From Loxodes magnus (taxonomy: Eukaryota > Ciliophora > Karyorelictea > Loxodida > Loxodidae), in contig CAMPDV010007676.1 in assembly GCA_946699065.1 (NCBI GenBank), forward strand, positions 34,427 to 98,426: a stretch of 64,000 nucleotides of DNA, given 5' to 3'. The notes under the pieces were generated by a model. That model had not been told where the DNA came from, did no database searches, and saw only the letters and a list, made by a program, of their open reading frames with translations. The position numbers and the translations under genes are program-made. Positions 3,480 to 59,530 of this stretch are shown in pieces (the stretch's first letter is position 1; each line of letters opens with the position of its first letter).

Positions 3480-3730
3480 TTCTTGCAGTTTAACGATCCC
3501 AACACTCCCTTCATGGGATAACGGGGATATCCTGTTGCTTTCGAAAAGCAACTGCCAGGGAGCTCCATCGCTATGGGCAGCCAGGCTTCAAGCCCCTACC
3601 AGGAGTGGATAATCAAGAGGAAGGCGTTCCCTTGCAAAGGTTGACTTTGACCAGGGACTTTCTCAGCGACAGGAAAGGAACTTGTTCCTAGCCATAAAAC
3701 CAGAAAGTATGATTCAGAAGGTCAATCTCA
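3480..3730. other. GC-rich island of unknown nature
   Basis: This stretch stands out sharply from the AT-rich surroundings, as the gag-like islands do. Both strands read through as protein-like sequence under the reassigned code. The plus strand gives for example GYPVAFEKQLPGSSIAMGSQ, with TGA needed as Trp twice near 3645. A perfect 8-bp hairpin (3534-3552) and other short inverted matches would also suit a structured RNA. I find no second copy in the window and do not recognise it. It may be a fragment of a mobile element, a non-coding RNA or an isolated exon. Confidence 0.5.
3534..3552. repeat. Perfect hairpin inside the GC-rich island
   Basis: GTTGCTTT at 3534-3541 is complementary to AAAGCAAC at 3545-3552, with the three bases CGA as loop. 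It is a strong local stem for so short a segment. Its role is unknown. Confidence 0.6.
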
Positions 3731-3848
3731 GCTCCCACCATCTTTTTAATTATTTATGAATGACTAAAAAAATAGTAAAAGGAATATCTAAAGTTTTACT
3801 TGGCATTCATGATAATTTTAACTAAAATATTTACATAAATTACTCTAT

Positions 3849-16142: not shown

Positions 16143-17055
16143 TCAAGAAAATAAAAGTTCGACGAATAAATCATAAAAGAAAAATTAAAAATAATGCTAA
16201 AAATCACTTTATTTTGTAAATATTTATTTCATAAAATTTCTTGTAAAGAAGAAATATTTTCTTAACTCTTAATAAACTTGGTGAGAGTATACTTCTATGA
16301 TTTAAATTTTTATATAAGATTGATATAATGAAGCAACATAATCATTAAGACGTTTGACATACTTTCATTTTTTAAAGAAAAATCTTATTTTTTCACCAGA
16401 ATCTTGCTTTAGACTTACTTCATAATTGAATGTTAGTTGTTTTCCTGAAATTTTGATGTTTACATTATGCAAACAACCAAAATTATTATTTTATTATACA
16501 ACATATATATACCTTTGAGCCCCTACTCACTCAAATACTAATTAATTTAATATTTAGAGATTATTTTCCTTTTCTGAAATGGCTAGAGCTATGAGGGATT
16601 CTTAATAAAAATTAACTTAATATGTTTATAAATGGAATATGCTGAATTTAGAGATTTAAAAGATTGCAATACTGCTAAATTATTATGTTTCTACACTTTT
16701 TAATTAGCATTTCTCCTAATCTTCACTTAAAAATTTTTTTTCCTTCTTAACATAATGGACTATTTATTCTTCTATCTCTCTATAGGTTGAATTTAATAAT
16801 TAAAGTCACTAAATCTCTTGAGTCCTGCTAACATTGGCAAAATTAAAAATTCTTATAATTTCTCTAATGAGTTACTTAAAATTAATTTTATAAATTGTTG
16901 TAATTATTTCTTAGCTTCCTAATTATTTCCTTCGCTTATAGATAAAAATCTCTTAATTGCTCTTTAAATATACTATTTATTATTCTTGCTCAACTAAAAT
17001 TACCAAAATAAATTTTTACATTGTATATATATTACTAAATTAAAAAGTTTAAATT
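16143..17055 (-). CDS. Unrecognised helical protein, cut at its 5' end by element E2
   Basis: Starting at the left border of gag-like element E2, one minus-strand frame runs for about 900 nt with clearly protein-like content. Stretches are RAIKRFLSISEGNNQEAKKQ near 16950, NFANVSRTQEIQWLQ near 16820, LIALAISEKENNL near 16590 and NVNIKISGKQLTFNYEVSLK near 16440. It is rich in Lys, Glu and Gln and looks alpha-helical. I do not recognise the family. It ends at one of two close TGA codons (16143-16145 or 16134-16136). No start is visible: the frame runs into E2, and on the far side of E2 only the upstream region of A2 is left. Either E2 inserted at or near the beginning of this gene, or the N-terminus lies in an exon I missed. 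Confidence 0.5.
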
Positions 17056-17059
17056 GGAG

Positions 17060-17802
17060 TTTAGTGAACTTGGAGGACTTTCAACCTCATTTCACAGGAC
17101 CAGTTTGATAACCTGGCTGGACAGCTCCCTTCAGAACTTTTTCTTCAGTCGCCTTGGATTGTGTACCACTTCGGTTTGTAGATTTGACCTCCTGACGGAT
17201 AAAATTAGTTACAGAATTATCGTCTAATCTTATCCTAATATTAGTACTATTATTTTTCTTATTATTTTCTATTCCAGTACTATTATTTAATTAATTTCAA
17301 TTTCTAACATTGTCTATATTTATGTCCAGTTTTTTTGCATACAAAACATCTTGGTTTATTCCTAATTCATTTCTTGTCTGGACTCCTCGGTAAATTAGTA
17401 GCTCCTTCTATGTCCATTGTATCTTGAATTCTCCTAACTTTGAATTCCTACTATTGTTACTACTTGCTATTCTCTTCAAGCACAGTTTTTCTCTACTAAA
17501 GCAATCCCATTTCCCTGAAGAAAGTGTTTTTCTCTCGATCGTAGACTTCCCAGAAGCTTTCTTTCCATTCTTTGAGCTCAGTAACTTGATTTTTTAGAGC
17601 TCTATTCTCTAATCGTAGCCTCTTTACTTCCTCCTTCAGGTCAGAGAATGCGATTAAAATTTATGCCTGTTCTTCCTGGAACTGTGGCATCGCAAACTCT
17701 CGCACGGCTGCTGCTTCTTGCGTCTCCAGCACCTTTCACCTTTCTAGGTCCTTCCTCTTCAGTTGGTGTCAACAGGGTAGCCTTTTGGCGCTTTTGTCCC
17801 AT
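17060..17802 (-). CDS. Gag-like protein of E2 (coiled coil + zinc knuckle)
   Basis: ATG at 17802 begins MGQKRQKATLLTPTEEEGPR. A one-base frame change near 17740 leads into a strongly charged helical region with FSDLKEEVKRLRLENRALKN and VTELKEWKESFWE (about 17650-17550), most likely a coiled coil. A Gln run follows, then a CX2CX4HX4C zinc knuckle, CFVCKKTGHKYRQC, at 17348-17307. Downstream comes YPSGGQIYKPKWY (about 17195), conserved in E1 and E3. An in-frame TGA at 17369-17367 just before the knuckle is harmless if read as Trp. The knuckle binds nucleic acid in retroviral and retrotransposon Gag proteins. The frame change may be a lesion or a shift site. Confidence 0.7.
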
Positions 17803-17904
17803 CTTTTAGTTTGGCCTAGAAGTTCCTAGTTGAGTCTATATTCTTGAAGGTTTTGAGAAGAAGATTATTTCTAGGAAGAAGATGTGTGAGTTAAAGATGA
17901 GGGT

Positions 17905-18215: not shown

Positions 18216-21200
18216 ATGGAACTGTAAATAATAATTCTAACACTTTTTATCTGATTGCTTACTTTTAGAATGGTACAAACTCAAACCTCTGGCCTTGTTA
18301 AAATAACTTGAAACTATAAAGCATTTTGATAAGCTTAACCAGTAAAAACTTTACAATAATATGGGATAGAGTCGACTTAAAATAATTCTTCTTTTTCATT
18401 AACATTCTGAATTTATAATTATTGCCTGATAGAGGATAAAATAAGCTTTTTCTAAATATCTGAAAGTAATGCTACTTATTATAATAGCTTTAGCATATAC
18501 AGCTAATAAACTCAGACTAAGGATTTAGTTATATAAACTTTAGTAAATTTTACTTCTGCTAACTAAATTTACTATTATGCCGCGAATATTACTGTACCAA
18601 ATTCTTGTAACTAATGAATGTTTATAGGAATAAAATATTGAGAATAATAAGATTTATCAGGTAGAATTAATATTTGTAGTACTCAGTTTTAATATAAAGG
18701 ATTATAATTAAGTTGTAATGATTCAAATATATTAGAATAGTACTACTTTAAGTATTTCTCTAGCAATGCAAGGGTTTATATTTTGTCTTATAATTTAAGT
18801 GTTACTTAAATCCAATTATTATAGACCTTATTTTGAGTTAAAAATTCAATAGGTATAGATTATTTCTTTACACAGGCTTTAATAAGAATACCTTGCTTAT
18901 AAGTTTGTGGAAGCTATTGTAATGGACCTAAAGTAACAGACTGCTAAGATTATTAGTTTTATAATTTAGTTAATAAAAACATTCCATATCAATCTTATAG
19001 AGGAAAAGCAAATAATAAGATTTAAATGTATGATATAGATGCTAATTTACTTATAACATATTCTTTAGATTAGTTTAGTTTATCCACTTGAATTAAAAGT
19101 GATTGTCTTAATACAAACATTTAAATCATTTGACAAATCGAAAGTGCATATCTATGCTATTAAACTAATTAAATTTAGAACAATCAGCATAAATTTTAGA
19201 TTAAATGGAGTTTTAGTAGTGATTTAACTTAAGCAATCTCTTTGTTTTAAGTGTAAGAATTTTTTAGTTGCCAAAATTGAATATTCATAGGTCTTTCAAT
19301 AAGTACAACTAAAAAATATTTATAAGCAAGCATTATTATTCCTTCTTATAATAAAATATCTAATTTTTCTCTATTTTATTCTTCAAATTTTGTAATTTAT
19401 TTAACTTCAACTTAACAATTAGGAGGTACTAATAATAATACTTTTGAAGGATTTATTTTATAACCTAGATTCTATCTATTTTATTCTAATCTCAGTTAAG
19501 ATAATTTTACTAATATTGCTTTATCATAAACTCCTTGCTTTCTAGAAACTAGTTGTGATACATGTTCATCACCAGAAATTTAAAATTGCTAAGCCAACTT
19601 AAAATTTATAGAATTATCTGATAAGCCTCTTAAAGCTTTAGTACCTCAAGAGATATAAAATAAAACTTTTAATGATTTTGAATATAATCCTTAAATATAC
19701 TCCTCAAATGTATGATCAATAAGCTTTTGACTTAAAAATTTAGAATAAACTAACTAAGAATAAATTTTAGTTACAATAGCAAACTATTATTGAATAACAA
19801 CATAGTATGATGAAGCTTAGCAAGATTAGTTAATTAGATTAAGAAACACTAGTCATTCTATTTTATAACTTAGTATTTAAACCGATAGAAGCACCTGATT
19901 CTTTCTTTCAATTACTTTCTAAAAATCCTAGAACAAAATCGAGATTTGCTCTATTGATTAAATAAAGCCAATAACTCTACTTTGTTAAAATTCTTATGCT
20001 GCAATTTAGCAAATTGATTAAGCATCACTTATATAATGAAAAAATACTCCAAATTTTAATGGTTCAATGTTATAGCCAAGATTTTATACCTACGATTAAT
20101 AAATAAATTAAACTGATTGAATCTAAATAATTACTTATGATAATCCGTGTGTCTTGTTTAGCTAATTCGAATGCATTTCTCCTGATATAAAAGATGATTA
20201 TCATCTTCCTTTTTTAAATTTCACTAAAAACTAAACAGAAACTAATATAAGTAATTCAGATGATTCTATTTAATATACATTTTAAGATTTTAACTACGAT
20301 CCTAATAAATATTCCTCTTACAATTATAGTATAAGCTTATGATTCTAAAATATATAATAAGTTTCAGGATAAGGAAGACAAAGAAATTTCTAGTAAAATA
20401 AATAAAGAATAGTTTGCTAAATAACTAAGCTTTATTCTAAATCTATTACTATAGCAATAATATAATTAAATAACTCATTTTCAGAAATTTAAGTACTATT
20501 AACACCAAGTTCTAATTTTACATACACTAAATTAATAGAAAATTAGAAATGATACTTCATTTCTATAAGTTTAAGATGACCTTAAGATATAACTATTTGC
20601 TTATAAAAGTATTAGTATAATGCTAATGTAGCTTGCGATTCTTTAAAGTCTAATTTTATTTAATTTGATAAGTGAAGTAAGATAATTCTAGGATCAAATG
20701 ATTAATAAGATAACTTTAATGGATAAATTTGAGATTTTTAATTTTATATCTTCGATACTTTGCTAACATTCTAAGATTCTTAATCAATCTTTACTAATAA
20801 TTGATGCTCTTTAATGTGTTAGTGAAATACATGTAATAGTCCTAACTTAAATAGTTGTATTCCATGCAATTAAACTTGCAAAGACTGTTTAGTAAATGAT
20901 TCAAATAAATGTACTAGTTGTTTTGATGGTTATTGACATGAGAGTAGTACTAATGCATGCAAGTTATGTTAAAATTAAATACAGAATTGCTAAACATGTG
21001 ATTTCCAGTAAGATAAAGTAACCTGCAATATCTGTAGTGGAGAATATATTTTAGATTAAAAATAAAATACATGCAAAGCTTGCTAAGACTTAATATAAAA
21101 TTGTACTTAATGTACTTATAATACTCAGATATTATGTGCTAGTTGCTAAGTAGGCTATTTACTCTTAAATAGTGAATGTATTGGATGTTCTTTTAATAAT

Positions 21201-23546
21201 TGTTAGTAATGTAATAATGATTTTTCTAAATGTATCTAATGTAATGATGGATATTTCCTAGATTAAAACAATAACTGCCAACCTTGCTCATTAATAGATA
21301 AGATGTGCATAAAATGCACAAACTAAGCTGAATGTCTATAATGTTAATAGCCTCTTAAGATATCTGGAAATTAATGCTTACTTAATTGTTTAAATTACTA
21401 ACAAGATTCTAACTATGATTAAGTATGTGAAAATTGCAACAAAGTTATCCCTTCTTGTAATGAATGCAATGAGAAAGGAGATTAATGCTTTAAGTGTTAA
21501 AACGAATATATAAATAAAGTAAACGAGTGCGTTAAATGTAGCGATGAAATTCCAAACTGTGCCACTTGTGATGATAGTAAATGCATCCGGTGTAATCAAA
21601 ATTTTCTATTATTGGAAGGAAAATGTGTTGAAAGTTGTCCTGTCGATACTTATATTTTATAAGATGAAGAATGTAAAAAGTGCAATAAGCTTTTTGATAA
21701 TTGTGAGAAATGTAATAGAGAATAATGCATATAATGTAAAGAATAATTTAAATTAGTTGAATAGTGTCCTACTTGTAATAATATATAATACTGCATTTAA
21801 TGTTAAAAGTATATTACTTAAAATAATATCTGCATAAGTTAATGTGATCAAGGGTATTAAATTTCTTAATAATGCAATGAAGGATTCGTTTTACAAAATT
21901 AAATGTGCTTAGATTAATCAAATAATTGAAATAATGAAGAAGAATAGGAAATAAAGCAAGAACAAGAATGAGAAGAGTAGAGAGAGTAACAAGAAGAAGA
22001 ACACGAACAAATTTAAGAACATGAAAAGGAGCAAGAATGAGAAGAGTTGAGTGAATAAAGCGAAGAAGGATGGGGTGATTAAAGTAATTTAGAAAATTAT
22101 AGTAAAGTTCCTAAAGATATGAACGACTTAAATTTAGCGTAGAATGAGGAAAAATTTATAAAATAAATTTAAATTTTTTGCTCAATAATAGCGTCCATAA
22201 CTGCTATAGTAGCATATTCTACTTTAGTTGTAAGTTAAGGATCCTCTGACTACTGCTAATAGTTTTGGGTTGCTTAATGTTTAGACGAAATGATCAAATT
22301 AACAGGCTTTATATCGGTGATGATGCCAAACGTTTTATAAGCTCTTTTTTTAGTAACTAAAGATGTGAAATAGATAATAATAGATTTAATTAATTTAGAT
22401 TTAAATTTAGATTCTTAAATGAAGTCTTAGAAAATAATATGATATAACTTATAAATATAAAGTATTAATTCCTCTACCTTTATTTCAAATGGAATTAGTG
22501 AACTGTTCGACATTTGTATATGCTGTGCTATATTTTATATAATTTGATAATTAAGAAATTTGGATAGCAAATTAGGGAATTATATGAACAAAATGTATGA
22601 TAATTATAGATATTCAGCCTTTATAAGAACAGGTATGAACGTATCTTTAGGGTTAATGACTTCTATTTTATTATAGATTAGATTTTCAAGTCTGAAAAAT
22701 TTATACATTACTATGAATACTTTTATCTCATATTTCTTTTTAGTAAGTTATAATATATAGATTTTAATGATAGCTTTCTGTTTTACAGTATTCATTTAGA
22801 TAAAGAAATATAAATAGGCTACACTAGCAATATTTAAGGATTAAGATACTAATGAAGAGTTAATAATAACAAAGAGGTAAATAGAATAAAGATTCAACAG
22901 TTTATTTTGTGAGCTTAAAGAAAATAATAAACCTGCAGCTTTATATTTCTATGCTATTTTTCTTATGAGAAGAGTAGTAGTTGTATTAATCATGATTATA
23001 GCTTAAGAATATCCAGAACTTTAAATATCAATGACTTCATTTTTATAGTTCATGTGAATTTCCTATTTGATAAAATTTAAACCTTTGAAGCATTCTTTAA
23101 TATTCGTGGTTAATCTTATCAACGAAATTTGGATTTTTATTTTGCTTCTTTAGTTTTCATTTTACATCCATCCATTTAGTAGTAGAATAGAAGATTTTGC
23201 ATTTTCCATTGTAATAATTACTATGCTTTTATTACTGTTTAATTATCTTTTTGCTTTAGCTCTAATTATTTATAATTTTCATAAATGGAGAAGAGAGTAG
23301 TCAAAAGTAAAGAATTTTTAAGCATAGAATGACTAAAGTACTACATAACACTAAATCCACAATACTCCTACTTCAAGGAATCAAGACACAGATAAATTTC
23401 CTAATGAATCAGTTTTAAAAGAGTAAAATAACCAAACTCAAGTCTAGGAATTGCAAGGTGATAGGTTTTATAACCAAATTCAAATATAGGAAATGCAAAG
23501 CGATAGATTATTTTTTAAGAAGAAAGAGGAAGATTGAGAGAAATGA
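18216..23546 (+). CDS. A2: giant surface protein, LamG-like x4 + furin-like Cys-rich + membrane domain
   Basis: About 1,770 codons with one 18-nt intron (22743-22760). ATG 18216 starts a signal peptide (MELQIIILTLFIWLLTF). Four jelly-roll modules resembling laminin G/concanavalin folds follow, roughly residues 40-280, 280-490, 490-690 and 690-860. They are marked by S-x-S-x-W strands near 18400, 19090, 19715 and 20330 and by QPRFY motifs. The Cys-rich region (20815-21910) has dozens of CxxC units of the furin/growth-factor-receptor type. Next come an acidic linker (21925-22080), a multi-pass membrane domain (about 22170-23290) and a hydrophilic tail. Trp is often TGA. The stop is TGA 23544-23546, aligned with the A3 stop, while a TGA at 23535 aligns with Leu in A3 and so is Trp. 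Ciliate proteins of this layout are usually called surface or TRP-like proteins; function is not shown here. Confidence 0.88.
21925..22080 (+). repeat. Acidic E/Q/W low-complexity linker in A2
   Basis: The codons GAA, CAA and TGA repeat to give QEQEWEEQ-type units at least twice between the Cys-rich region and the membrane domain. A3 has a much shorter linker here and A4 and A1 have none of it, so it expanded in A2 only. The nucleotide unit is close to CAAGAATGAGAAGAGT. Confidence 0.75.
22743..22760 (+). other. 18-nt intron in A2
   Basis: GTAAGTTATAATATATAG, 18 nt. It keeps the frame whether removed or not, but it lies exactly where A4 and A1 need a 17-nt intron removed. The A3 version ends CAG instead of TAG, as expected for a 3' splice site. 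Confidence 0.8.
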
Positions 23547-31919: not shown

Positions 31920-34900
31920 TCATTTCTCTAAATTTTTCTCTCTCTTTCTCCAAAAAATATTATCACTTTGTATTTCCTAGATTTAAGTTTAATTATTTTA
32001 CTCTCTAGAAACTGACTCATTATGATGGCTATGTCTCTTTACTTCTTTTTTTATTCTTGAGGTAGGAATATTATGAACATCGATTTATGTAGTGCTTTGA
32101 TCTTTCTTATCTTAGAAATCCTAAACATTGGTTTGCTCGCCTTTTTATCTTCACTACTTGAAAAGGTTATAAATAATCAGAGCCAAAGCAATAAGATAAT
32201 TAAACAGTAATATAAGCATAGTTACTACTACAATGAAAAAGGCGAAATCTTCTATTTTACTACTAAATGGATGGATGTAAAATGAAAACTAGAGAAGCAA
32301 AATAAAAATCCATATTTCGTTGATAAGATTAACCACGAATATTAAAGAATGCTTCAAAGGTTTAAATTTTATCAAATAGGAAATTCACATGAACTATAAA
32401 AATGAAGTCATTGATATTTGAAACTCAGGTTATTCTTAGCCTATTATTATGATGAAGACAAAAGCTATTCTTCTCATAAGAAAAATAGCATAGAAATATA
32501 AAACTTCAGGTTTATTATTTTCTTTAAGCTCACAAAATAAACTGTTGAATCTTTATTCTATTTACCTCTTTGTTATTATTAACTCTTCATTAGTATCTTA
32601 ATCCTTAAATATTGCTAGTGTAGCTTATTTATATTTCTTTATCTAAATGAATACTGTAAAGCAGAAAGCTATCATTAGAATCTGTATATTATAACTTACT
32701 AAAAAGAAATATGAGATAAAAGTATTAAAAGTAACGTATAAATCTTTCAGACTTGAAAATCTAATCTATAATAAAATAGAAGTCATTAACCCTAAAGATG
32801 CATTCATACCTGTTCTTATAAGTGCTGAATATCTATAATTTTCATACATTCTGTTCATATAATTTCCTAATTTATTATCCAAATTTCTTAATTCTCAAAT
32901 TAGTAAAAATATAGCGCAGCATATACAAACGTCGAACAGTTCACTGATCCCATTCGAAATAAAGGTAGAGGAATTAATGCTTTAGATTTATAAGTTATAT
33001 CATATTTTTCCTTAAGACTCTATTTTAGAATCCAGGCTAACTCCAAGCAAATCTATTATTATCTATTTCAAATCTTTAGTTACTAAATAAAGAGCTTATA
33101 AAACATTAGGCATCATTACTGATATGAAACCTGTTATTTTTATCATTTCATCTAAGCATTAAGCAACCCAAAATTATTAGCAGCAATCTGAGGATCCTTA
33201 ACTTGCAACTAAAGTAGAATATCCTGCTGCAGCAGTTATAGAAGATACTATTAAACTAGTACTTTATAATGATTTTATAAAAGTTTCTTATTATTATGTT
33301 AAATTCAAGTCATTTATATTCTTAGGAATTTTACTATAATTTTCTTAAATATTTAATTCATTTTCATGTTTTTCCTTTTGAGTTTCTTCATTATTATTTT
33401 TTGTTTTATCATTGCACTTTCCATTTTCTAATTTAAATCCTTATTCACATTCTTCACAAGTCTCATTATTTAAATCACATTCTTATACACAAGTTTTGTT
33501 TAAAACTTGATTTTGTTTACATTTTAAGCAATTTTCTATCTCACTACAACTTGGACACTACTCAGCAAATAAAAATCCTTATTTGCATTATGTGCATTCT
33601 TCTATACCACATTTCTCACAATTTTCAAAAATCTAATCACATTATTTACATTCCCAATTTTTCTGAACGTAGCTTTCGAAAGGACAGATTTCAACACATT
33701 TCCCCTCCAATAATAGAAAGTTTTGATTGCACTAAATGCATTTACTATTATCACAAATAGCACAATTTTAAACTTCATCGCTACATTTGATACATTAACC
33801 TTCCTTATTTATAAATCCATCCTAGCACTTAAAGCATTAATCTCCTTTCTCATTACATTCATCACAAAAAGGAATAATTTTGGTACAGTTTTCACATATT
33901 AAGTCTTAGTTAGAATCTTATTAATAATTTTAGCAATCTAGTAAGCATTAATTTTCTGATAGTTTATATGGAACTTTACATTGCTAACATTCAATTTAGT
34001 CTTAGCATTTAATACAATTTTAATCTATTTATTAGCAAGATTCACAATTTTAGTTTTAGTTAATAAAAAATCCATCTTTACATTATATGCATTTAGTTAA
34101 AGTATTATCACACAATTAACAGTTAGTTAAATTGCAATAAAAGCATTTGTTATATAATAGTAAGTAATTTTATTCGCAAGAAATGCAAGTAACTGCAGTA
34201 TTACTTTAAGTGCAGCTATTACAATTTTCAATAGTATTTTGACAAGTTTAGCATTAATTTTATTATTCATTTAAAAAATTTCCTTCTACACATTATTTAC
34301 AAATAGGAACTTACTAGTTATAAAAACAAATTTTACAACTCTAAATTAAGTCTGAGCAAAGTTTACAAATATAAGAATTGCTTTAATATAAATATCCCTC
34401 ATAACAACTAGTACAGTTATTAATATCATCAGCTAAACAATCCTTACAAGTTTAATTACATTCAATGCAACTATTCATACTTGGACCTTTACATGTACTT
34501 CATTGGCAATTTAACTCACAATCATTATTATTGAATATTGTTTAAAAATCTGTTTCTGTTACAAATGTATCAAAAATATAAAATCTAAAATCATAAATAT
34601 TTCCTATGAAGTTATCTTCTTTTTAAATAGCTCCTAATATTATTTTGCTTTATTTATCAAATTAAATAAGTTCAAATTATCTAATAAAGGTAATTCCTTC
34701 TGGTAAATTTCTAAATTACTATAATTAAATGCTAACTTCTTAATCTTTTAAGCTTATAGTTAGCAAATATCACTTCATATTTTCTATTTAGTGTATTTAT
34801 TATTCATTTTATTTTAGAGCAGTTAAGTATACGTAAACATTTGAATATTAAGAATCTATTGCTTGTATGGCTACTATAATAGATTCCTTATATAATGAAA

Positions 34901-37102
34901 TTATTTAACAGACTATTCTTTATTTATAGGTTTATAAGTTCCTTTATCTTATATCTTTTAAATTTGTTAATTATTCTGTATTTTAGAATCATAGTGATAA
35001 ACTATACTACTAAGATGAATATTTTAAAGGATCATAGCCTAAACTAGAAAATGTGTACTAACTAGCCTCTTATTAATCATCTATGAAAGTTTCTATTAAT
35101 TTCTGAGTAAAGCTTATAAAATGATAATGCTAATCATCATATATATCAGGAGAACTACATTCAAATTAGCTAAATAAAGCACATGGATTTTCTAAGCTAA
35201 TTAGTTGTATTCAATCATCTTATGTTATTTCTTGATTATAGGTATAAAATCTTGGTTATATTATAAATCCACTAAAAATAGGAGTTTAAGTAAATGATAT
35301 TATCTAAGTATAATCAAATGAAACTAAACTATATTAAGATATTTACTATTTACAATTTAGTGTTTAAGGTTTTATTTAATCAGTATAGTAAATGGCTATA
35401 GTTTATAATTTTGAATTTAAGGTTAGCTATAGGAAGAATCATTTATCGATACTTATCCTAATATTTTGATTTAAAGTTATTTGTCCATTATAATAAAAAA
35501 TAATATTCTGGGTATTTGAGAGTTAATCATATTGTAGTGCTAATTAGTATAAACTCCCTATTTAAACTAAATTTTCTTCTTAAATTGTAGTTCCTAAATT
35601 ATAAAGCCAAAAGCTAATAGATCAAATTTTTGAAGAATAAAGTAAAGGATTATATCCATAATTATCAAAAGATTTATCTTAAATATTAGATGAATATTAA
35701 GCCACTAAAGAATATTCAGTTAGTTCTAAGAATTTTATTTTAGTTTAGCTATACTAAACTTCAGGTGAGATGCAAGAATCATAACTAGTTTCAAGTAAAC
35801 AAGGGGTTTATGAATCAGCTATTTAGATAAAGTCATTCTCATTTAGAAAAGTATTGAATAGATAGAATCTTGGCTAATTAATCCTTCAAATTGATCTTAA
35901 TTTTCTCCTCCTAAAATAAAATAAGAGCTAGATGATATTATAATAGTTCATGAAACTTGATGCAAAATGCTAATTTAATCATTAGGAGATATAATAATAA
36001 TTTAATTTATTTAGTCTTGTAATTAACTTGCAAAACCTATGAAAATTCAGTTTGAACAATTTACTAATGAACTTTGTTCGACAATAGTAATTGCATTTGA
36101 AAAATCTGTATCTGGATTTCATAAAATTTTAAATTTATGCTAATATGATTATATTTAAGTTGCTTTATAACATAAGAATTAAGAGTCTAATTATCATATT
36201 ACTTGAAGTTCTTGATTAATGCAATCATTTTTAATTCAAGTAGTGAAACTAAAAGAATTTAAGGAATAATCCAAAATATTTTAATTGTCTTTATCCTTTA
36301 ATATTGCTTGCTGCTTTAATTTACCTTAAGTAGATAAAAAGGAAATGCTTTAATCAGCTAAGTTATAAAACTGAAAATTTTAACAGTCAGTAATTTCAGG
36401 TCCAATACAATAACTCCCACAGAATTATAAGCAAGGAATTCTTTAAAGAGCTTCTGTAAATTAATAATCTATATATTATGAATTGCTAGTTCAAAATAAA
36501 GTCTATAAAAGTTAAATCTAAAAAGTAATGCCATCATACCCTTAATAATTTAATATATAAATATAGTCAGAATTTTCGAAGTATTTAAAAAAATATTCAT
36601 CTAAAATTTAGGAATCATTACAACTTCAATCAAACCCTTAAACCTAAAAATTAGTACTGCAAATCTTCAGCTAACCTTCTTATAATAGCGATTCTCAATA
36701 TTTTATACCCACAAAATTTCATTTGTTGCAGGATTTCCCCAAACTATAATCCACTTTTCCATAAGTGTGGTTAAATGTAATAAATTTAAGAAACAATTCC
36801 TCATTCTAATGTTAGATTATGTTTATGTTAATTTATAAAGCCTTATCTTATCTGTATTAGTAAAATAAGATTAAATATAATTCATTATATACTATGCAAG
36901 GATGATAAAGTCAAAATGTTAATGAAAAAGATTATTAACTTTATTGAGTGTCAATTCCATATTCCTGAAAAGATTTAAAATCTTTAGTTTTATGATTCTA
37001 ATAAAAGTTAGTGAGTTCAATAAAATCCTAGGATTATCCTTGCAGGATATTAGCAATAAATATTAAAGCAAACGGCAGGTATTATTTTGCCAAGGTAGCC
37101 AT
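31920..37102 (-). pseudogene. A3: A-family surface protein with a 4-nt deletion
   Basis: ATG at 37102 starts a signal peptide (MATLAKQYLPFALIFIANIL). The layout matches A2: four LamG-like modules, Cys-rich region (about 34510-33400), short linker, membrane domain with an 18-nt intron (32682-32699), and tail ending EKNLEK then TGA 31922-31920. The frame is continuous from 37102 to about 35880 and from there to the end, but the two halves are out of register. Where A4 reads GLILQPRFY, A3 lacks four bases near 35875, and restoring four bases makes the total length divisible by three. Everything else looks conserved, so the lesion is recent, a sequencing error or a tolerated shift. The N-terminal half resembles A4 and the C-terminal half is close to A2. 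Confidence 0.82.
32682..32699 (-). other. 18-nt intron in A3
   Basis: GTAAGTTATAATATACAG on the minus strand. It is at the same codon boundary as in A2, with the 3' end changed from TAG to CAG. Confidence 0.8.
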
Positions 37103-45200: not shown

Positions 45201-45314
45201 TAAAACATAAGCTTAGCTAAATAGGAAAATGATAAAAGAAATTTTTATTTATTCTTTGTTATAAGAAAGAGATATAATTATACCTTTAGAGTAAAATTTA
45301 GAAGAATTAAAAAA

Positions 45315-46255
45315 ATGGTTGAAAGTTTCAAGTCAGGCTTCTATATCACCTCTTCCTAAGCCAAAAAGGAAGGGAGGAAGCAAGAAACCAAGTCTTAATA
45401 ATCTTAACAATCTTCTCTATCACAACCTTAACCAACACTGAACTAACGATTTGGAATCTAACAAAACGAACGAAAGCCAACCTTGAAGAATATACGCACG
45501 GAAACTCCAACTTCAAGCGAGAAACTGATGAAATAGATGAAGTCATTTCTCCACCAGGAGGTATCAGAGTTCAACCCTTCTGACCAGATGAGCATGTAGT
45601 AGCTCATCAAAGTGGTACTGAACCTCCAGGAAGAGGTCAAGAGATTGAAGAAGGACAATGATATGCTGATGGCAAAGCTAAACCTAGCAGAAGGAATTGA
45701 GTCAAGACTTATGTCCTAGGAAAGAGATCTTAACGCCTTTTGGAATATCTCACAAAGTCAGACTAACGAATCCTAAAATTAGCTTTAGAAACAGACTGAA
45801 CTGGATAACAGACTCGAAAAGTAGAAGAGAAATTTTAAACTTTTAAGAAAGAGTAAAGAGAAACTGGAGCTATATAAATGGAAATCGAAGCCTAGAAAGA
45901 GCAAACAAATCAAGGAAAATAATTAAAAATAAAAAAGAAATGTTTCTGCTGTGAAAGCGTATGACATTTTTATCGGAAGTGTTAGAAACTCTAATAGAAA
46001 TAAAGAAACTATTGGATAAAAGAACAACAAAAGAAGAAAAAAGAAGAGGCAAGAATGAAAAGAATGTATTGCAACCCAGATGGTTCAATATACAAGATTA
46101 GGATGGAACCAAGGCAAGTTAAAGGAGGGAAAACCTGGAAAAATCCGAGTTCCCAATCTCGCTAAAATTGGGCGTCCCGAATTTTTATATTTATCAGCAG
46201 GGAGCATGAACTACTGTATTCCTGACGGGGTTGGAAATCCCTAAAACGGAAAACT
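45315..46255 (+). mobile_element. E3: gag-like element with CCHC zinc knuckle
   Basis: GC-richer island with abrupt edges. ATG 45315 begins MVESFKSGFYITSSQAKKEG. A coiled-coil region follows with NLQEEVKRLKKDNDMLMAKL (about 45620-45680) and QKQTELDNRLEKQKRN. A one-base register change in the A-rich stretch near 45910-45935 leads to a CX2CX4HX4C knuckle, CFCCESV-x-HFYRKC, at 45941-45982, in which x is TGA, read as Trp. Then comes YCNPDGSIYKIRM (about 46070), matching E2 and E1. No polymerase domain follows; the GC-rich part stops near 46255. Several long standard-code ORFs on the opposite strand here are antisense shadows. Confidence 0.7.
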
Positions 46256-47480
46256 TAAAAGTAATATTATTAAAAAGTAAAATTTAGAATTATGCAAATA
46301 TAAACATTAATGAAGAATTATTATATTTAATAAATCATCTGGTAAATTATCTAAATGAAAAAAAATTAATTAAATAAGAAATTAAATATTAAATTATAAG
46401 AAATAAATAGTTATAATATAATTAATATAAGAAAATATGAATATTAATGATCAAAATCATTTGGATAAATAATTGCTTTTTAGATTTCGTTTACTATATA
46501 AAAAAAATAATATTCCAACAAAAATAGATACTTTGTTAGAGAAATTTAAAATAAATAATAATTTCCTTAAACTTATTACAAAATATTTTATAGTCTCAAT
46601 CTTAAATAAATAAATATAAAAGTGAGGGATATTAAACTATTATTTCTTTTTTATAAATATATTAAAAAATAGAAGATGCAATTTTATTTTATTCTTAGAG
46701 ATTTATAAAATGATTAATGAAACAAGCTATTTATTACAAAAATAGTAGTAAATGTATTTAGATTATATTATATAATTGTTTAAGAATTTATTTTAATATT
46801 TTTTAATGTATAGTTACTTTAGTAGCTTAGTTTAAATAAAATCTCATAATAATTTAATTGTTTTTATAAATACTCTCTTAATTTAATTATACTAGTTATA
46901 TATTTTTAAGAGTGATATTAGAATATTATCTAAAATAGCTCTTTTAAATAATAAAATTTTGGTTTCTCTTATTATGAAGAAATGAACTTAATTATTAAAT
47001 TAATAATTATAAAACTAAATAATTATATTAAAGTTCCTTGCTTGTAAATGGTTTATTTTATTTTTACTTAGAAGCAAACTTTATTTTATCTTATGGTTAA
47101 GTTGAAGTTTTTATACCTTATTAATTTAAGAATCTATTTTATTTTATTAAATATTTATACTAATTATTCCTAAAATAATCTTAATCCTAGCAGCTTATAG
47201 TTAGATATTAGAGCATGCTTATATAGTTAAAATATAAGTAATAAACTAATTTAGATAATAGAAAGCTGTAATAATAATTTAAAATGTATTACTTAAAACA
47301 ATAATAGCTATAATTAAATTAAAAGTATCTTAACTATTTAGTATGCTAAGAGATTTTTATATCTTTTAATTTAAGTTTAATTGTTAGGTCTTAGTCCTTT
47401 CTAATCAATTAATTTAGATTAAATTTAAGGTAAAACTTTATAATACAATATCTTTATGTATTGAAGAACTATTTATAAAT
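46256..47480. other. No gene recognised
   Basis: Very AT-rich interval after E3. No terminal repeat of the element, coding-like frame or other motif was identified. Confidence 0.4.
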
Positions 47481-50129: not shown

Positions 50130-53100
50130 ATGGATACCAAACTAAAATTTTACCTGCCGTTTGCTTTGATACTCATTCTTAAAACCATGCAAGGCTAAGT
50201 AGTAGAATTTATAAAATTTACTGACTATTATTTGTCTGAATCAACTTAAATTGATAATCCACTGTCTGATTTTGGCATTGATACCCAATTAAGTTAATAA
50301 TCTTTTTCTTTAACATTCTGATTTAATCATTATTGCTTAATATAAGATAGTCTAAATATTATATCCTTAGTTTAGGGAGGATAGACATATTCTTAGGAAA
50401 TAAAAATAAGCATAATATAAAATTAGAATAATGATTTAGTTTTAGAATTTATTGCAAGTAGTACTGAGTAATATTAATCAGAATTAAATTTAGGAAATTC
50501 CTGTAACTAATGAATCTTTGTAGGTATCAAATATTCAGAAACACAATCATAGCAAGGCTAATTAAAACTTTGTAGTACTAAATTTTAAGTTAAAGGATTT
50601 GATTTACTATGTAAAGATTCCACTGATTTAAATGAATATATCTTTAAATATTTTACAAACTCTGCATAGCTTAGTATATTAAAGTATAATGGTTATGATG
50701 ATATTAATTTTCAGATAGAACTCTTATAAGTTTTATTTTGAACTAGCAATTCATAATATATAGATGAATATTTTACAGAAGCTCTTTAAAGAATTCCTTG
50801 CTTATAATATTGTGGAAGTGATTGCCATGGACCTGAAACTATTGACTGTTAAAATTATCAGTTTTATAGTTTATCTGATTAAACTACCCCTTTTTTATCT
50901 ACTAATGGGAAGTAAAAACAACAAATAATACTAAAGGATATAAGCAATTAAAACCTTATGAAGTATTCCTTAAGTTCTTTTAGTTTCTCTGCTTGAATTA
51001 AAAGTGATTGTTTAAATTAAAATTTTCAAGTAATATGATAAATAGATACTTAATTTTTATGTTATCAGGAAACTTAAATATAATCAAATTAGCATAAATT
51101 TAAAATTTTATGAAGTCCAAATATAGATTCTTCACTTGCTTTTATAATTTTTGAACAATTTTAATTAATTAATTGTTCAAACTGAATTTTCATAGGTTTT
51201 TCAAGTTCATAATAAAGTTCTGCATATGAAATAACGGTTTATTCTCCTAAGGATTAACTTAACTATTTCCAAAAATTTGCGATTGCCATTACAATAACAT
51301 CAAATTCTTACTTAATTTTGGGAGGTGAAAATTTAGATCAGTTTGAAGGATTAATTTTATAGCCAAGATTCTATCTTTTTAATTCCTTTCTAGAATAAAC
51401 TGATTTCATTTAAGTAGCTAATTCATAAACTCCTTGCTTATTGGAAACTAGTTATGCTTCTTGCTAATCACCTGAAGCTTAATATAGCTAAAGTAATATA
51501 AAATTCTTAGAACTATCTGACTATTCTCTAGTAGCCAATTAACTATCTGATCTTTAAGATAAATCTTTTGATACTTATGGATATAATCCTTAACTTTACT
51601 CTTCGAATATTTGATCAGTTAGCTTTTGGCTGTTTAATTAAGGCAGAATAAGTTAAGAAGAAGTACTAGTTTAAATAAAGAATGTATGGTTATTAGCAAT
51701 ATAATATGATCAAATCCAAAAAACTCAAACTATTAACTTTTATTATAATGAACTAATTGTAAATCAAACTATTTAAATAAGTAACTATAAATGATTCTTC
51801 CTTCAGATAACCCTATAGATAAAACTATAAACTGTAACAACTTGCTTTTCTGATTAAGTTAAACCTTCAACACTATATTGTAAAGATTTCATTTACTAAA
51901 ATAGTGTTGCTTAATTTGACTATAAATATTTAATTTAATTTAATTTTGATCCACCTTTTAATGGATATATTATGTAGCCAAGATTTTATACTTACGATCA
52001 ACAAATAACGTAAGATGAATGAATACAAATAATTACTAAAGATAATCCATGTGCTTTATTTAGTCAATTTGAATGTATTTCTCCTAATTTATTAGATGAT
52101 AATTATACTCATTTTATTAACTTTACCCAACATTTATTAGAAACTTCTATAGATGATTAGTAAGAGGCTACTTAGTACACATTTTCAAGCTTAGGTTATG
52201 ATCCTATAAAATATTCATCTGAATCTTATAGTTTATCACTATGGCTCTAAAATACAGAATAACCATCAAGATTTAGAGATATAAGATAAAGAAACTTATA
52301 AACCTATAAATAAAGAATAGTTTGCTAAATAATTTCATTTTATAAGCAATCTATTAAAATAACTATTTAAATGGAAGACTACACATACTCAGAGATTTAG
52401 GTACTATTAACTCCTAAAGGATATAATTTTAATTATATAAACTAAATAGAAAATATGAAGTGATATTTAATTACTATAAGTCTAAACAGATAAGAGGAAA
52501 GCATAATTTGCTTATAGTAATATTAATATTCCTAAAATATATAATGTAACTAATATAGTTCTAAGTTTATTTAATTTGATAAATAAAGTAAAATAATAGT
52601 AGGAGCTATTTAACAAGAAGATAACTTCATAGGAAATATTTATGATTTAAGGTTTTATATTTTAGATTACTTTTTAGTAATTTAAAAATTTAGTGAAATC
52701 TTTACTAATAATGATTGTGCTTTAAACTGCTAATGAAGTACATGTAAAAGTCCAAATATAAATAGTTGTAATCCATGTAATAAAACTTGTGTTGACTGTT
52801 TAGCTGAAGATATTAATAAATGTACTAGTTGCTATGAAGGTTATTTATATTATAGTAGCAGTAATATATGTAAACTTTGCTCAGACTTAATATAAAATTG
52901 TAAAAAATGTGCTTAAATGGGAATAAATCCAAGTTGTAATAAATGTAATGAAGGTTATTTTTTAAATTAATAATAGAATAAATGCTAAACTTGTTAAGAT
53001 CTAATATAGAATTGTAATAACTGTACTTGAAGTAATAGCAAAGTTATTTGTAACTCCTGCGAATAAAACTATTTAAAATCTGATAACTAATGCATTGGAT

Positions 53101-55542
53101 GTAATTTAACTAATTGCTAGTAGTGTGATAATAATTTAACTGAATGTTTACAATGTGAAGATGGATTCTTTATTAACTAAAATTAAAATTGTGATTCTTG
53201 CTAATAAATAGATAAAAATTGTATTAAGTGCTAAGACCAAAATAAATGCTTACAGTGCAGTTTTCCATATAAACTAACATAAAATTAATGCTTATTAAAT
53301 TGTTTAATTTATTAGTAAGATTCTAGCTAAGACTTTATATGTGAAAATTTTACTAAAAATATTCCTTTTTGTGATGAATGCACTGAGAAAGGAGATTAAT
53401 GCTTAAAATGCTAAGATAATTTTATAAATAAGATTGATTAATGCGTCAATTGTAGTGATGAGATATTAAACTGTGCTACTTGTGATAATGATAAATGCCT
53501 TCAATGCAATTAAGGTTTCATTTTGTTGGAAGGGAAATGTGTTGATAGCTGTCCCATCGATGGTTATGTTCAATAAAATCAAGAATGTAAAAGATGTGAT
53601 CAGCTTTTTGATGATTGTGAGAAATGTGATGCAGAAGAATGTAAATAATGTAAAAAATAATTTTATTTTATTGAGTAGTGTCAAAACTGCAGTGAGATAA
53701 AGTATTGCTTGAAATGCAAATGAAACTAGGCCATAAACAAAACATGTGTAAAAGAATGTGACTAAAATCAAGAAATTTGCGAAGAATGTGAAGAAGGATT
53801 CACATTAGAAAACGGAAAATGCAATGATAAATCAAATGATGATAGCGAAAAAGAAAAAACTGAAAAACTAAAAGATTATATTAAAGTAGCATCAAGTCTT
53901 AAGGATTTTAATATTTCTTCATAAGAACAAGCTTTTTTGCTATCAACTTCAGCAATTTCTGATGCTGCAATAATAGTTGGAATCGGATGTTCTTCTATTT
54001 TGACTGTTTTATTAGGATCTTCTGGTGGATCTTCGGCAGCATGACTTACTCTTATTTTAGCTTCATAACTTATTTTAATAAACGCTTTTGTAAATGCTCA
54101 GAAACCAGTAAATTTAGCAGCTTATTATTTCCAATAAAGTGAAAGTAATATGGTAGCTTAAGGTAACGATAATAAATTTCTGACTTTTACTTTAGATGCT
54201 GATGAGAACCGAATTAATGATAATATTTTACTCATAATAGGATATTATAGTTACACCTTTCTGGCAAATAGTTTATTCCATATTATGGTAATATCAATCT
54301 ATCTAGTAATAGACTTAATCTTAGGCTTAATAGGATAAAAAGTAAAAATATAAAAAATAAATAAGTTTAGAAATAAATATTTACACTATAGATTCTTAAT
54401 TTCTATCTATTTAGCATTCTCTCTTTAACTAAATTACTCTATTATGCTTTAGGCCTTTAACTGTTGCTTTGAGACATTTTATACTGGATTAAATTCAGTC
54501 TTATCATTTATTGGAATGGTAACTTTTAAATATAGATTATTTAAGTATTAGTAATATTATATTTCTTCCAGATAGTGCTAAAATTTATTAAACTATAAAG
54601 TAAAGTTAAAGATATTCAAGTGAAGGACTTAATTTCACAAGATTAGAAATAAATTAAGCAGTTTAAGAAAAAGTATTTCCCTCTCTTTGATGAACTAAAT
54701 ACAAGTTAGTTAAGCACTCTTATATTTTATCCTTTATTCTTGGTAAGAAGATTTATCTTGGCAATAGTGCTTATAGGATTGAGAGATTATCCTCTGGTTC
54801 AAATAACTTTGATAGTTCTGATAAATTTAGCTTAAGTAGTTTATGTAATAGTTTGTAAACCTTTCATAAGAAGAGTAATGAATATTACTCATATCATATT
54901 AGAAGTCTGATTTATCACTCTAAATACTTTCAATTTCTATTTCTATACTCTCGATGACGAAAAGAAACTTAGAAGTTTAGAATCAATAGATTCGGATAAA
55001 TCAAAAATAATAGGATTTATAGTAGTATCATTGTCAAATTTTGTGACTTTATTTGGAATAATAATTTGCCTATATTCTATCATTAAAGATACAATAAATA
55101 AAGCAAAAGCTAAGAAAATAAAAAAATAAAATAAAATATAAGATTAAAATGCTGCTCCTATGAAGAAAGTAAATACAGTTTTACTAAAGACTTTTTAAGA
55201 AAGTTTTGGAATTTTGAATGCAAAAGAAGAAAACTCGACTTTTAGAGAATCAAACTTAAATGAATAAAAAGAAAAAATTTAAATTGAAGAAATCAAGAAT
55301 GTAAGTACTTTAGATATTTTTAGAATAGTTTATACTATGTTGAAGAGGAGAAAGTTGCTTAGAATAAGTCCAAAGATAAGTCAAATTCCAAGTTTAAAAA
55401 AGTAGATAAATTAAAAAGAAATAAAAAATTATCTGATATAGAAAAAAATGTGAAGTCTCATAATAGAAAAACAAAAATAAAGTATTTAGAAAAAGACTTT
55501 CTTTGAAAAGAAGACTCTTCAATAAAATTATTCCTTTTATAA
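50130..55542 (+). CDS. A4: giant surface protein, LamG-like x4 + furin-like Cys-rich + membrane domain
   Basis: About 1,790 codons in three exons (introns 54519-54535, 17 nt; 55301-55323, 23 nt). The length is in frame from ATG 50130 to the end. The signal peptide is MDTKLKFYLPFALILILKTM. Four LamG-like modules follow (S-x-T/S-x-W strands near 50310, 50990, 51620, 52240; QPRFY repeated). The Cys-rich region (52735-53825) has NC-xxC and CxxC repeats, leading into GKCNDKSNDD. The membrane part (about 53935-55110) includes SSGGSSAAW with TGA as Trp. A Lys/Glu-rich tail ends SIKLFLL. TAA at 55540-55542 aligns with the TGA stop of A1. If only TGA stops, the protein would run on to TGA 55681-55683. 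It is closest to A1 in the C-terminal third and to A3 at the N-terminus. Confidence 0.88.
54519..54535 (+). other. 17-nt intron in A4
   Basis: GTAACTTTTAAATATAG. Without removing it the membrane domain is out of frame. With it removed, the sequence aligns with A1, A2 and A3. Confidence 0.88.
55301..55323 (+). other. 23-nt intron in A4
   Basis: GTAAGT...TTTTTAG. Removal joins IKN to NSLYYVEEEKVAQNK, a tail conserved with A1. Keeping it gives a different, less plausible tail. Confidence 0.8.
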
Positions 55543-57279: not shown

Positions 57280-59530
57280 AAAATAAAGATATCTTGGATA
57301 TAAGTACTAATAGCAATATTTAAGTATTAGAGACTGATAGAAAGTGCTATATAATAGTTAAATGTGGAGCTTCCTATTTCCTTCTCTCTTTAGTTTGCAA
57401 ATAATTAAGTTCAATACTTTAGTATTACTCTAGTTGAGAGAAACAACTAAAATACTAATTCGTTTTGAACCTATTATATGATATTAAATATATAACTAAT
57501 ATAAAAGTTTTAATGTGCAGGTAAAATCTATCTAATAAACTAAAATTAGATAGTTTCTTGCTTAGATAAGACAAGTATAACCAATTAATATCAACTAGGT
57601 ATTTTAGAAAGTCAAGAATTTGTCTAATCAAAATAAATTAAAAGATTTATCAGCTTTCATTTAAGCCTTATAATTTTTAATTACTACAAGACCAAGATTT
57701 AATCTTATCTTTAGTAGCTTTTAAATTAGATCATGATAGTTAAAACTTCCATTTTAGTAGACTAAGCAGAAGAAAAGCTAAAATAGTTTAAAATTTAATC
57801 CTGCCTTATGAAAAAACTTCTTTATATAAAAAATTAAATTAGGATTATTATATGGAGCAACCTTCAATATAGTTATAAATCCTTTAAGCATATATTAAAT
57901 AAGTATTACACTCTTTAATATATTTGATAGTTTTTGTTGTGTTGAATAATTATAAATAACTTAGAAAATTTGCTAGGAATTTAATATTTAAGAAATATAG
58001 TTATAAAAGGAGTAGATATCAACAAAAGGTGGAATTGGAGTTAGTTTTTGATGTTAGGAAATATAGAAGTTCAAATAAAAGAGTTATATAATTAAAGTAT
58101 ATCACAGGAAGCAAGATAGTATTTGGAATAGGAGATAGTGATGGTATTAAGTACATCATCCGAATATAATAATAGTATATAGATATTATCCTTTTCCTCT
58201 AGATTTGCTAATGGAATTTTTACCATTAGCTATGTTTTAATTCCTACATAAAAAGTTAGAATTAACTTGGAAATCCACATCAAATAAATTTAGGCATATA
58301 ATTTAGATTAGACTATATGTATGGGAAAGAAATTACGTATACAAACCTGAAAAGTAATAATGTTTAGAGGATAGTAACTCAAGAGATAAGATTAGTGATT
58401 TTTAACTTTCTAGGGTATGAACAAAATCTAAATAAGTACCAAAAGCTTTAATAGGAAACATTGCTTGAAAACTCTTGATTTATGATTGAAAGTCCAAGCA
58501 TAATAAGTAATTGACATTTTTGCGTTTGGAGTTATACTCTGAGAAATATTTACCAGGAATCTTACTTAGAAGCACGACGAAGATAGGCTTATAAGAGTGA
58601 AATTAAAATTAGGAGAAGGAGAGAATATACCAAAAAATTCTCCAGAAGGTTTTAAATCAATTATTTAAGGATGTTGAAGTTAAAATCCGAACGATCAGCT
58701 AAATCTTAAAATTGCTCAAGCTTAATTATAAAATTTACTAGTACCAGCAAAAACTCGACTAACTTACTCTAATTAAATTAGTAAATATACTTAAGCTAAT
58801 ATTCTAAAAATTGAAAAAGAAAAAGTAAAAGTTATAGCCAAGTAATAAACTATCAATGAGACTAAGTTGATAAAGAATGAAGATAATTAATTAATATAAA
58901 TAAATCTTTATAAGGCCATAATGCTTAAGTATTTTCAGTAGCAATCTTAAGTGACAGTGAATGAATAGTTTCAAGAAGTGATGAAAGAACAATTAAGATA
59001 AGAAACTTGATAATTATTTGTTAAAGATTACTTAACATGAACTTCAGATTCTGTATAGTCAGTAATCATCACAAGTGATAATAAGTGAATAGTTTCTAGA
59101 AGATCATATAAAAGGATAAAGGAATGGAGTTTAACAAATAATTAGTTTAGAAGTATTTTGAAAGATCATTTGGAGGCTATAAAACCTTTAACTAACTAAA
59201 ATGGCAATAAATGATCAATATCAAGTAATTGGGATAAAAAAATAAAAATTTGAGATTTTCAAACTGTTTCATGTATAAAGATATTAGAACTTCATTCAGA
59301 TCTTATATAAAGGTGGCGTTAAGTGATGATAATAACTGAAACTTTGAATAAGCAATTAGGGAAAATGTTAAATTAACTAAATTGTGAAAGAGTAAATTAG
59401 GTAAAGCCACAAATAGGGCGAAAGTAAAAAGAGATCTTTATCAAAAGTGTTTTATTTCATTTCAAAATACTAGAAAATAAATAAATATAAAAACTTTTAG
59501 AGAAGAATAAGTCTAACTTTTCCAATGTGT
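57280..59530 (+). pseudogene. P2: pseudokinase-WD40 gene, decayed by frameshifts
   Basis: Homologue of P1. Kinase pieces occur in order but in changing frames: glycine-rich loop KGGIGV (58025-58042), HHPNIIIVYRYYPFPLDLLM (58150-58215, matching P1 YPNVIHIKGYCPSPLSLVM), TNLKSNNV where HRDLKxxN is expected (about 58350), KISDFQLSR in place of DFG (about 58395), then DIFAFGVILWEIF with the Trp as TGA (58513-58551), and GCWSQNPND (about 58670). WD40-type repeats follow near 58930-59000, 59050-59110, 59200-59270 and 59310-59380. KIKIWDF has its Trp as TGA (about 59250). At least four register changes within recognisable motifs, more than plausible introns explain, suggest a pseudogene. As in P1, the catalytic Asp is Asn and the DFG Gly is changed. 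Confidence 0.7.

Follow-up and report, generated by a model that had tools for sequence, protein, structure and literature searches.

The 64,000-nucleotide stretch analysed here (the window; contig CAMPDV010007676.1 of the Loxodes magnus assembly GCA_946699065.1) has a GC content of 21.9% and contains four related genes, A1, A2, A3 and A4, together with a kinase gene and a decayed kinase-WD40 gene. With the standard stops (table 11), just one stop-to-stop open reading frame of at least 120 amino acids is found across the entire 64 kb, which makes the genes of this region invisible to a standard gene finder. The subject of this work is the way in which the A genes and kinases use the codons TAA, TAG and TGA, all three of which had been proposed, from the letters of the A genes, to be sense codons.

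The frequent in-frame occurrence of these codons, the starting point of that proposal, was borne out, as the 5,926 codons of the four A genes include 393 TAA, 98 TAG and 67 TGA. Read from the ATG at 50130, A4 has 153 “stops” per 1,768 codons (8.7 per 100) and a longest stop-free run of 72 codons; the corresponding numbers are 195 per 1,773 for A2 and 179 per 1,726 for A3. The frames are homologous over approximately 1,700 aligned codons per pair, with a codon identity of 28-41%, and in each of the four gene pairs compared, codon position 3 has diverged more than the first two, so that coding constraint acts on the A frames or did so until recently. A4 does not, as had been assumed, form a single frame up to position 55542: it is interrupted by a 17-nt intron and ends at an upstream TGA (Table 1), and the final ~90 bases of 50130..55542 are therefore 3' flank.

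For the paralog comparison, proteins were aligned with X in place of TAA, TAG and TGA, and codon pairs were counted for A4-A2, A4-A3, A2-A3 and A4-A1. Over these four pairs, TAA stands opposite CAA 47 times (12.3 expected), TAG opposite CAG 12 times (0.9 expected) and TGA opposite TGG 8 times (0.25 expected; maximum of 3 in 2,000 shuffles), and TGA-TGA pairs number 40 against 0.73 expected. The 22 partners of TGG, the unambiguous tryptophan codon, include 8 TGA and 6 TGG; at codon 1588, A4 has TGA and A1 has TGG. No TGT was found opposite TGA (0 of 359 cells) and no TGA opposite cysteine (0 of 585 Cys cells). The assertion that TGA occupies the tryptophan positions of LamG-like motifs (SFSLTFx, SFSFSAx, NxIFIG) also held, with 11 columns that have TGA in A4, A2 and A3 alike and 3 further TGA/TGG swaps. 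A Trp/Tyr swap cited in its support does exist (A4 codon 967, opposite TAT in A2), although it is weak evidence: elsewhere this column has TAA 12, CAA 4, GAA 2 and TGA 2 times, and it is a glutamine column in the other copies of the family.

Further copies of the A family were collected from the complete assembly (705,730,643 bases, 7,843 contigs) with a 501-base probe. Among 143 candidates, 40 matches were scored, those listed being 82-99% identical over the probe, and 20 of the 39 matches outside A4's own place were analysed; some of these 20 are near-duplicates, so the copies are not independent. Opposite the TGA codons of A4, these copies have TGA in 209 and TGG in 21 of 295 cells, and TAA makes up the largest part of the rest (30 cells, of which 29 fall within two glutamine columns). 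The pattern opposite the TGA codons of A2 is clearly weaker (264 TGA and 35 TGG of 508 cells). TGA or TGG is present in at least half of the copies in 13 of the 16 A4 TGA columns and in 19 of the 28 countable A2 TGA columns, that is, those with at least five copies. With A4 as the reference, TGA replaces TGT in 8 of 1,064 cells of this wider family.

The same meanings emerge from protein kinases. The 30 best-scoring of 136 listed kinase domains (5,592 candidates) of the same assembly were aligned to one another with the three stop codons masked. Tryptophan scored +59.5 nats for TGA, with phenylalanine next at -9.3 (21 cells), a lead of ~69 nats; glutamine scored +23.5 nats for TAA, with lysine next at +1.3 (117 cells), and +29.4 nats for TAG, with lysine next at +5.9 (67 of 68 cells scored). 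In a column that we take to be the tryptophan of the DxWSxG motif, 22 of the 30 domains have TGG, 7 have TGA and 1 has Tyr. The residue predicted by the TGA columns, which the original prediction had recommended counting, is thus tryptophan both in the kinases and in most A4 columns, and the assignment of TAA and TAG to glutamine and of internal TGA to tryptophan is supported by the paralogs, the 20 further copies and the 30 kinase domains.

Profile scoring of the window proteins, with TGA read in nine ways or as X, points in the same direction for some models. Under PF07714, tryptophan is the best reading in both window kinases (171.9 versus 167.8 for Phe, and 30.4 versus 23.6 for Tyr). In A4, Laminin_G_3 (PF13385) reaches 22.9 bits with tryptophan and 12.7 bits with phenylalanine, and the other eight readings give no match; the curated cut-off of 27.6 is not reached. 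When the first kinase was aligned with 54 outside homologs, TGA was best read as tryptophan (+5.8; next Leu, +1.8), from four columns only. The structure predicted for two lectin-like repeats has a mean predicted local distance difference test score of 42; the first repeat, which is jelly-roll-like, is the only one to exceed 50 along most of its length, and the fold matches of this low-confidence model are weak.

In addition to its internal use, TGA appears to double as the stop codon of the A genes, and it terminates all four of those in the window. In the 30 codons before the TGA shared by A4 and A1, the two genes differ by 1, 2 and 4 bases at codon positions 1, 2 and 3, respectively; in the 29 codons after it, by 3, 10 and 5 bases, and identical residues number 26 of 30 before this TGA but 15 of 29 after it. 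No similarity between A2 and A3 was seen beyond the second terminal TGA of A2. The alignment reaches the end of A4 or A2 for 11 of the 20 fetched copies, each of which has TGA at that place or three codons later; these copies form four end types and are therefore not 11 independent cases. In the karyorelict code, distance to the poly(A) tail, with a short 3' UTR, would decide whether UGA is sense or stop. In-frame TGA is absent from the final 76 codons of all four window genes, and TAA or TAG is present within the final 20 codons of each of them. UAA is reported to be depleted ahead of the stop in L. magnus (PMC11441545); this depletion is not obvious in the A genes, as A4 and A1 have TAA 13 codons from the end. 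The original prediction had offered tables 27 and 28; the former fits, with TGA at the aligned ends, and the dual role of TGA as a terminator had been overlooked.

Changes in eRF1, another suggested check, were found. Two eRF1 genes of the assembly lie ~35 kb apart on one contig, and both carry RAQNIKS and FLCENTF, compared with TASNIKS and YLCDNKF in the best PDB match (one of the two genes aligned), so the stop-reading motifs are altered in both, which probably affects stop reading. A third gene found by the same profile looks pelota-like by eye. The 17-nt intron GTAACTTTTAAATATAG, a single case, is common to A4 and A1; introns are mostly short in L. magnus, with a mode of 17 nt, against a mode of 15 nt (15-16 nt) in heterotrichs (PMC11441545). 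Like the eRF1 changes, the intron length agrees with the karyorelict code.

Taken as nuclear (macronuclear) DNA of the karyorelict ciliate L. magnus, the window would be read with UAA and UAG as glutamine, UGA inside a coding sequence as tryptophan and UGA near the transcript end as stop. These assignments correspond to NCBI table 27, the karyorelict code, which almost certainly applies here; its basis in the comparison is formed by the three sense meanings shown above together with TGA at the ends of the A-family genes. The code has already been described for Loxodes, and the finding is correct, not new: table 27 is stated for L. magnus by the authors of the assembly, who give a coding GC of 33.5% (PMC11441545), and the 30 kinase domains have 33.0%. 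Comparison of raw sequences was enough to confirm a code whose 64 codons all carry a sense meaning, one of them doubling as a stop.

The window resembles the published karyorelict code of L. magnus and Parduczia in UAA and UAG as glutamine, in UGA as internal tryptophan and as stop, and in the short introns (PMC11441545). An earlier transcriptome survey assigned UGA as stop and UAR (UAA and UAG) as glutamine to karyorelicts including Loxodes, and UGA as a sense codon is not mentioned in the accessible part of that text (PMC6935857). Plagiopyla frontata is alike in UGA as tryptophan and UAR as glutamine, but UGA is rare there (3 of 240 query proteins with UGA at conserved tryptophan sites; PMC10553269) and common in the genes read here. 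Condylostoma magnum (table 28) shares the sense meanings of the three codons, whereas its UAA and UAG are also stops and the A-family genes end, where they align, in TGA. The nonstop code of Blastocrithidia is table 31. It likewise uses all three stops as sense codons, with UGA as tryptophan, but its UAR encodes glutamate (PMC12153298) and not glutamine as here.

Among the alternatives, a Condylostoma-type code, in which UAA and UAG would additionally serve as stops, comes first and has identical sense assignments; we nevertheless regard it as improbable. The nine fetched copies with unaligned ends leave room for UAA or UAG as the stop of some gene, but neither was seen as a stop at the aligned A-family ends, which are TGA. 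Moreover, TAG and TAA precede the terminal TGA of A4 by 4 and 13 codons, respectively, with CAG opposite that TAG in A1 and TAA at the same distance of 13 codons in A1 as well, and the intron is 17 nt long, against 15-16 nt in heterotrichs. Still less probable, to the point of being barely tenable, is a table 6 (Tetrahymena-type) code under which the A genes would be pseudogenes, their tryptophan codons having decayed to TGA stops. The frame change of A3, the missing N-terminal part of A1, the decay of the second kinase and the 9 of 28 countable A2 TGA columns that are not tryptophan columns would suit such an explanation; against it stand the 13 A4 columns rich in TGA or TGG, the absence of TGT-to-TGA replacement in the window and its rarity in the wider family, the presence of TGA in tryptophan columns of well-conserved kinases, which by itself contradicts this explanation, and the lower divergence of codon positions 1 and 2. 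Readings of TGA as cysteine (Euplotes), or of UAR as glutamate (Blastocrithidia, peritrichs) or as lysine and glutamate (Oligohymenophorea sp. PL0344), find some favour in one gene, where PF00069 prefers Cys by 1.9 bits and Lys ties with Gln for TAA, and can be dismissed with near certainty given the lack of TGA opposite cysteine in the window paralogs and, in the 30 kinases, the ~69-nat lead of tryptophan and the lead of glutamine over lysine and glutamate by at least 22 nats.

Several observations weigh against table 27 and the sense meanings on which it rests. Of the 508 cells opposite the A2 TGAs, 209 (~41%) contain a codon other than TGA or TGG, and such codons are in the majority in 3 of 16 A4 and 9 of 28 A2 columns. 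These columns argue against a strict tryptophan column at the positions concerned, with replacement or decay as the most likely cause. One A4 TGA column has TGC or TGT in 8 of 20 copies. A2 has no Laminin_G_3 match under any reading of TGA. Under PF00069, the first window kinase reaches 136.6 with Trp, less than with Cys (138.5), Leu (137.8) or Tyr (137.5), and the WD40 models of the second kinase are mixed, some favouring Tyr, Gln or Arg and others Trp. In the first kinase alone, Gln and Lys score 157.2 each for TAA, and 150.4 and 151.1, respectively, for TAG. With the 54 outside homologs, the best reading is Lys for TAA (+1.8; Gln -0.4) and Cys for TAG (+1.8; Gln +0.6), so this set does not settle these two codons. 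The 9 of 20 fetched copies that have other ends or lose alignment are uninformative on the stop. A genome search with an approximate 72-nt human tRNA sequence did not find tRNA-Trp; within the window, ARAGORN predicted no tRNA, and Rfam gave no matches at gathering scores.

Table 1. Positions in the window of the A genes, their introns and ends, and the two kinase genes
Feature	Positions	Strand	Description
A1	10342-8346	minus	family copy without N-terminal part; exons 10342-9281 and 9263-8349
A1 intron	9280-9264	minus	same 17-nt intron as A4
A1 terminal TGA	8348-8346	minus	predicted stop
A2	18216-23534	plus	single exon, 1,773 codons; in-frame 30 TGA, 130 TAA, 35 TAG
A2 first terminal TGA	23535-23537	plus	predicted stop
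A2 second in-frame TGA	23544-23546	plus	3 codons downstream of the first; aligns with A3 terminal TGA
A3	31923-37102	minus	read in two blocks; near 35872 the frame shifts by 1 nt relative to A4
A3 terminal TGA	31920-31922	minus	predicted stop
A4 exon 1	50130-54518	plus	signal-peptide-like start (by eye), LamG/ConA-like repeats, Cys-rich region, beginning of membrane part
A4 intron GTAACTTTTAAATATAG	54519-54535	plus	17 nt; inferred from frame change
A4 exon 2	54536-55450	plus	membrane-type C-terminal part (by eye)
A4 terminal TGA	55451-55453	plus	predicted stop; A1 has TGA at the equivalent place; codon-like substitution pattern stops here
A4 codon 64 (SFSLTF-W)	50319-50321	plus	example of internal TGA as Trp; TGA in A2, A3, A4 and 18/18 other aligned copies
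Protein kinase gene (PK_Tyr_Ser-Thr)	4288-5697	minus	frame changes after 4288; 10 TGA, 0 TGG
Kinase-WD40 remnant	58057-59421	plus	frame changes present; 10 TGA, 3 TGG

The A family is large and clustered and consists of surface-type proteins of ~1,770 residues, judged by eye from the signal-peptide-like start, lectin-like repeats, Cys-rich region and membrane part, with several C-terminal types. The frame change of A3 is either that of a pseudogene or a long-read assembly error. The C-terminal part of A2 (22410-23294) is 92% identical to that of A3 (32148-33032) over 885 nt, compared with ~72% upstream, which suggests gene conversion or an exchange of ends. Frame arithmetic identifies a frame of 1,206 codons under table 6 at 18430-22050 as the +1 frame of A2 and not as a separate gene. 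When the A4 protein (TGA as X) was compared with 5.8 billion proteins, none of 5,821 candidates had an E-value of 0.001 or lower; a scan of viral contigs for A4 gave one pattern-matching stretch, which was not confirmed, and no match to a conserved DNA word.

Both window kinases (4288-5697, minus, and 58280-58520, plus) have Asn in place of the expected catalytic-loop Asp (HGNLK and YTNLK), and because of this replacement both look like pseudokinases, the second being additionally frame-broken. The tail of the first looks Kelch-like by eye (Pfam E-value 0.068); for an intron at its frame change (~4290 to 4230), seven candidates fit in length and none is convincing. A codon-usage model marks three further coding-like stretches, 16900-17900 (in a higher-G+C part), 45300-46300 and 3489-3746, none of which has a Pfam match above the curated cut-off and which could be exons, repeats or something else.

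The share of UGA among tryptophan codons differs between the gene classes read here. In the four A genes (24.7% GC), TGA accounts for 67 of 81 tryptophan codons (0.83), and the pooled share of A-ending codons in five other A/G pairs is 0.81; in the 30 kinase domains, it accounts for 21 of 82 (0.26) versus an A-ending share of 0.73. UGA as sense makes up 1.13% of all A-family codons (67 of 5,926, some of these TGAs lying outside tryptophan columns) and 0.275% of those in the kinase domains, compared with 0.120% in Parduczia, 0.042% in C. magnum and 0.059% in Blepharisma japonicum (PMC4967479). The kinase set was picked by a score that probably penalises TGA, and the contrast between the A family and the kinases is therefore an upper estimate; the 136 listed domains together have 157 TGA, with an average of 0.7 per domain among the top 30 and of 1.6 among the last 16. 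This quantitative point may be new. Tentatively, and rather less likely than not, the tolerance of UGA as tryptophan could depend on gene class, UGA being as free as other A-ending codons in a large, AT-rich, recently amplified surface-type family and avoided in strongly conserved genes. If so, decoding UGA would come at almost no cost in some genes and at a high one elsewhere, and the cost could follow, for example, expression level or the competition between readthrough and termination; gene-class-dependent use of UGA, if upheld by an unbiased count, would be relevant to the maintenance of an ambiguous code.

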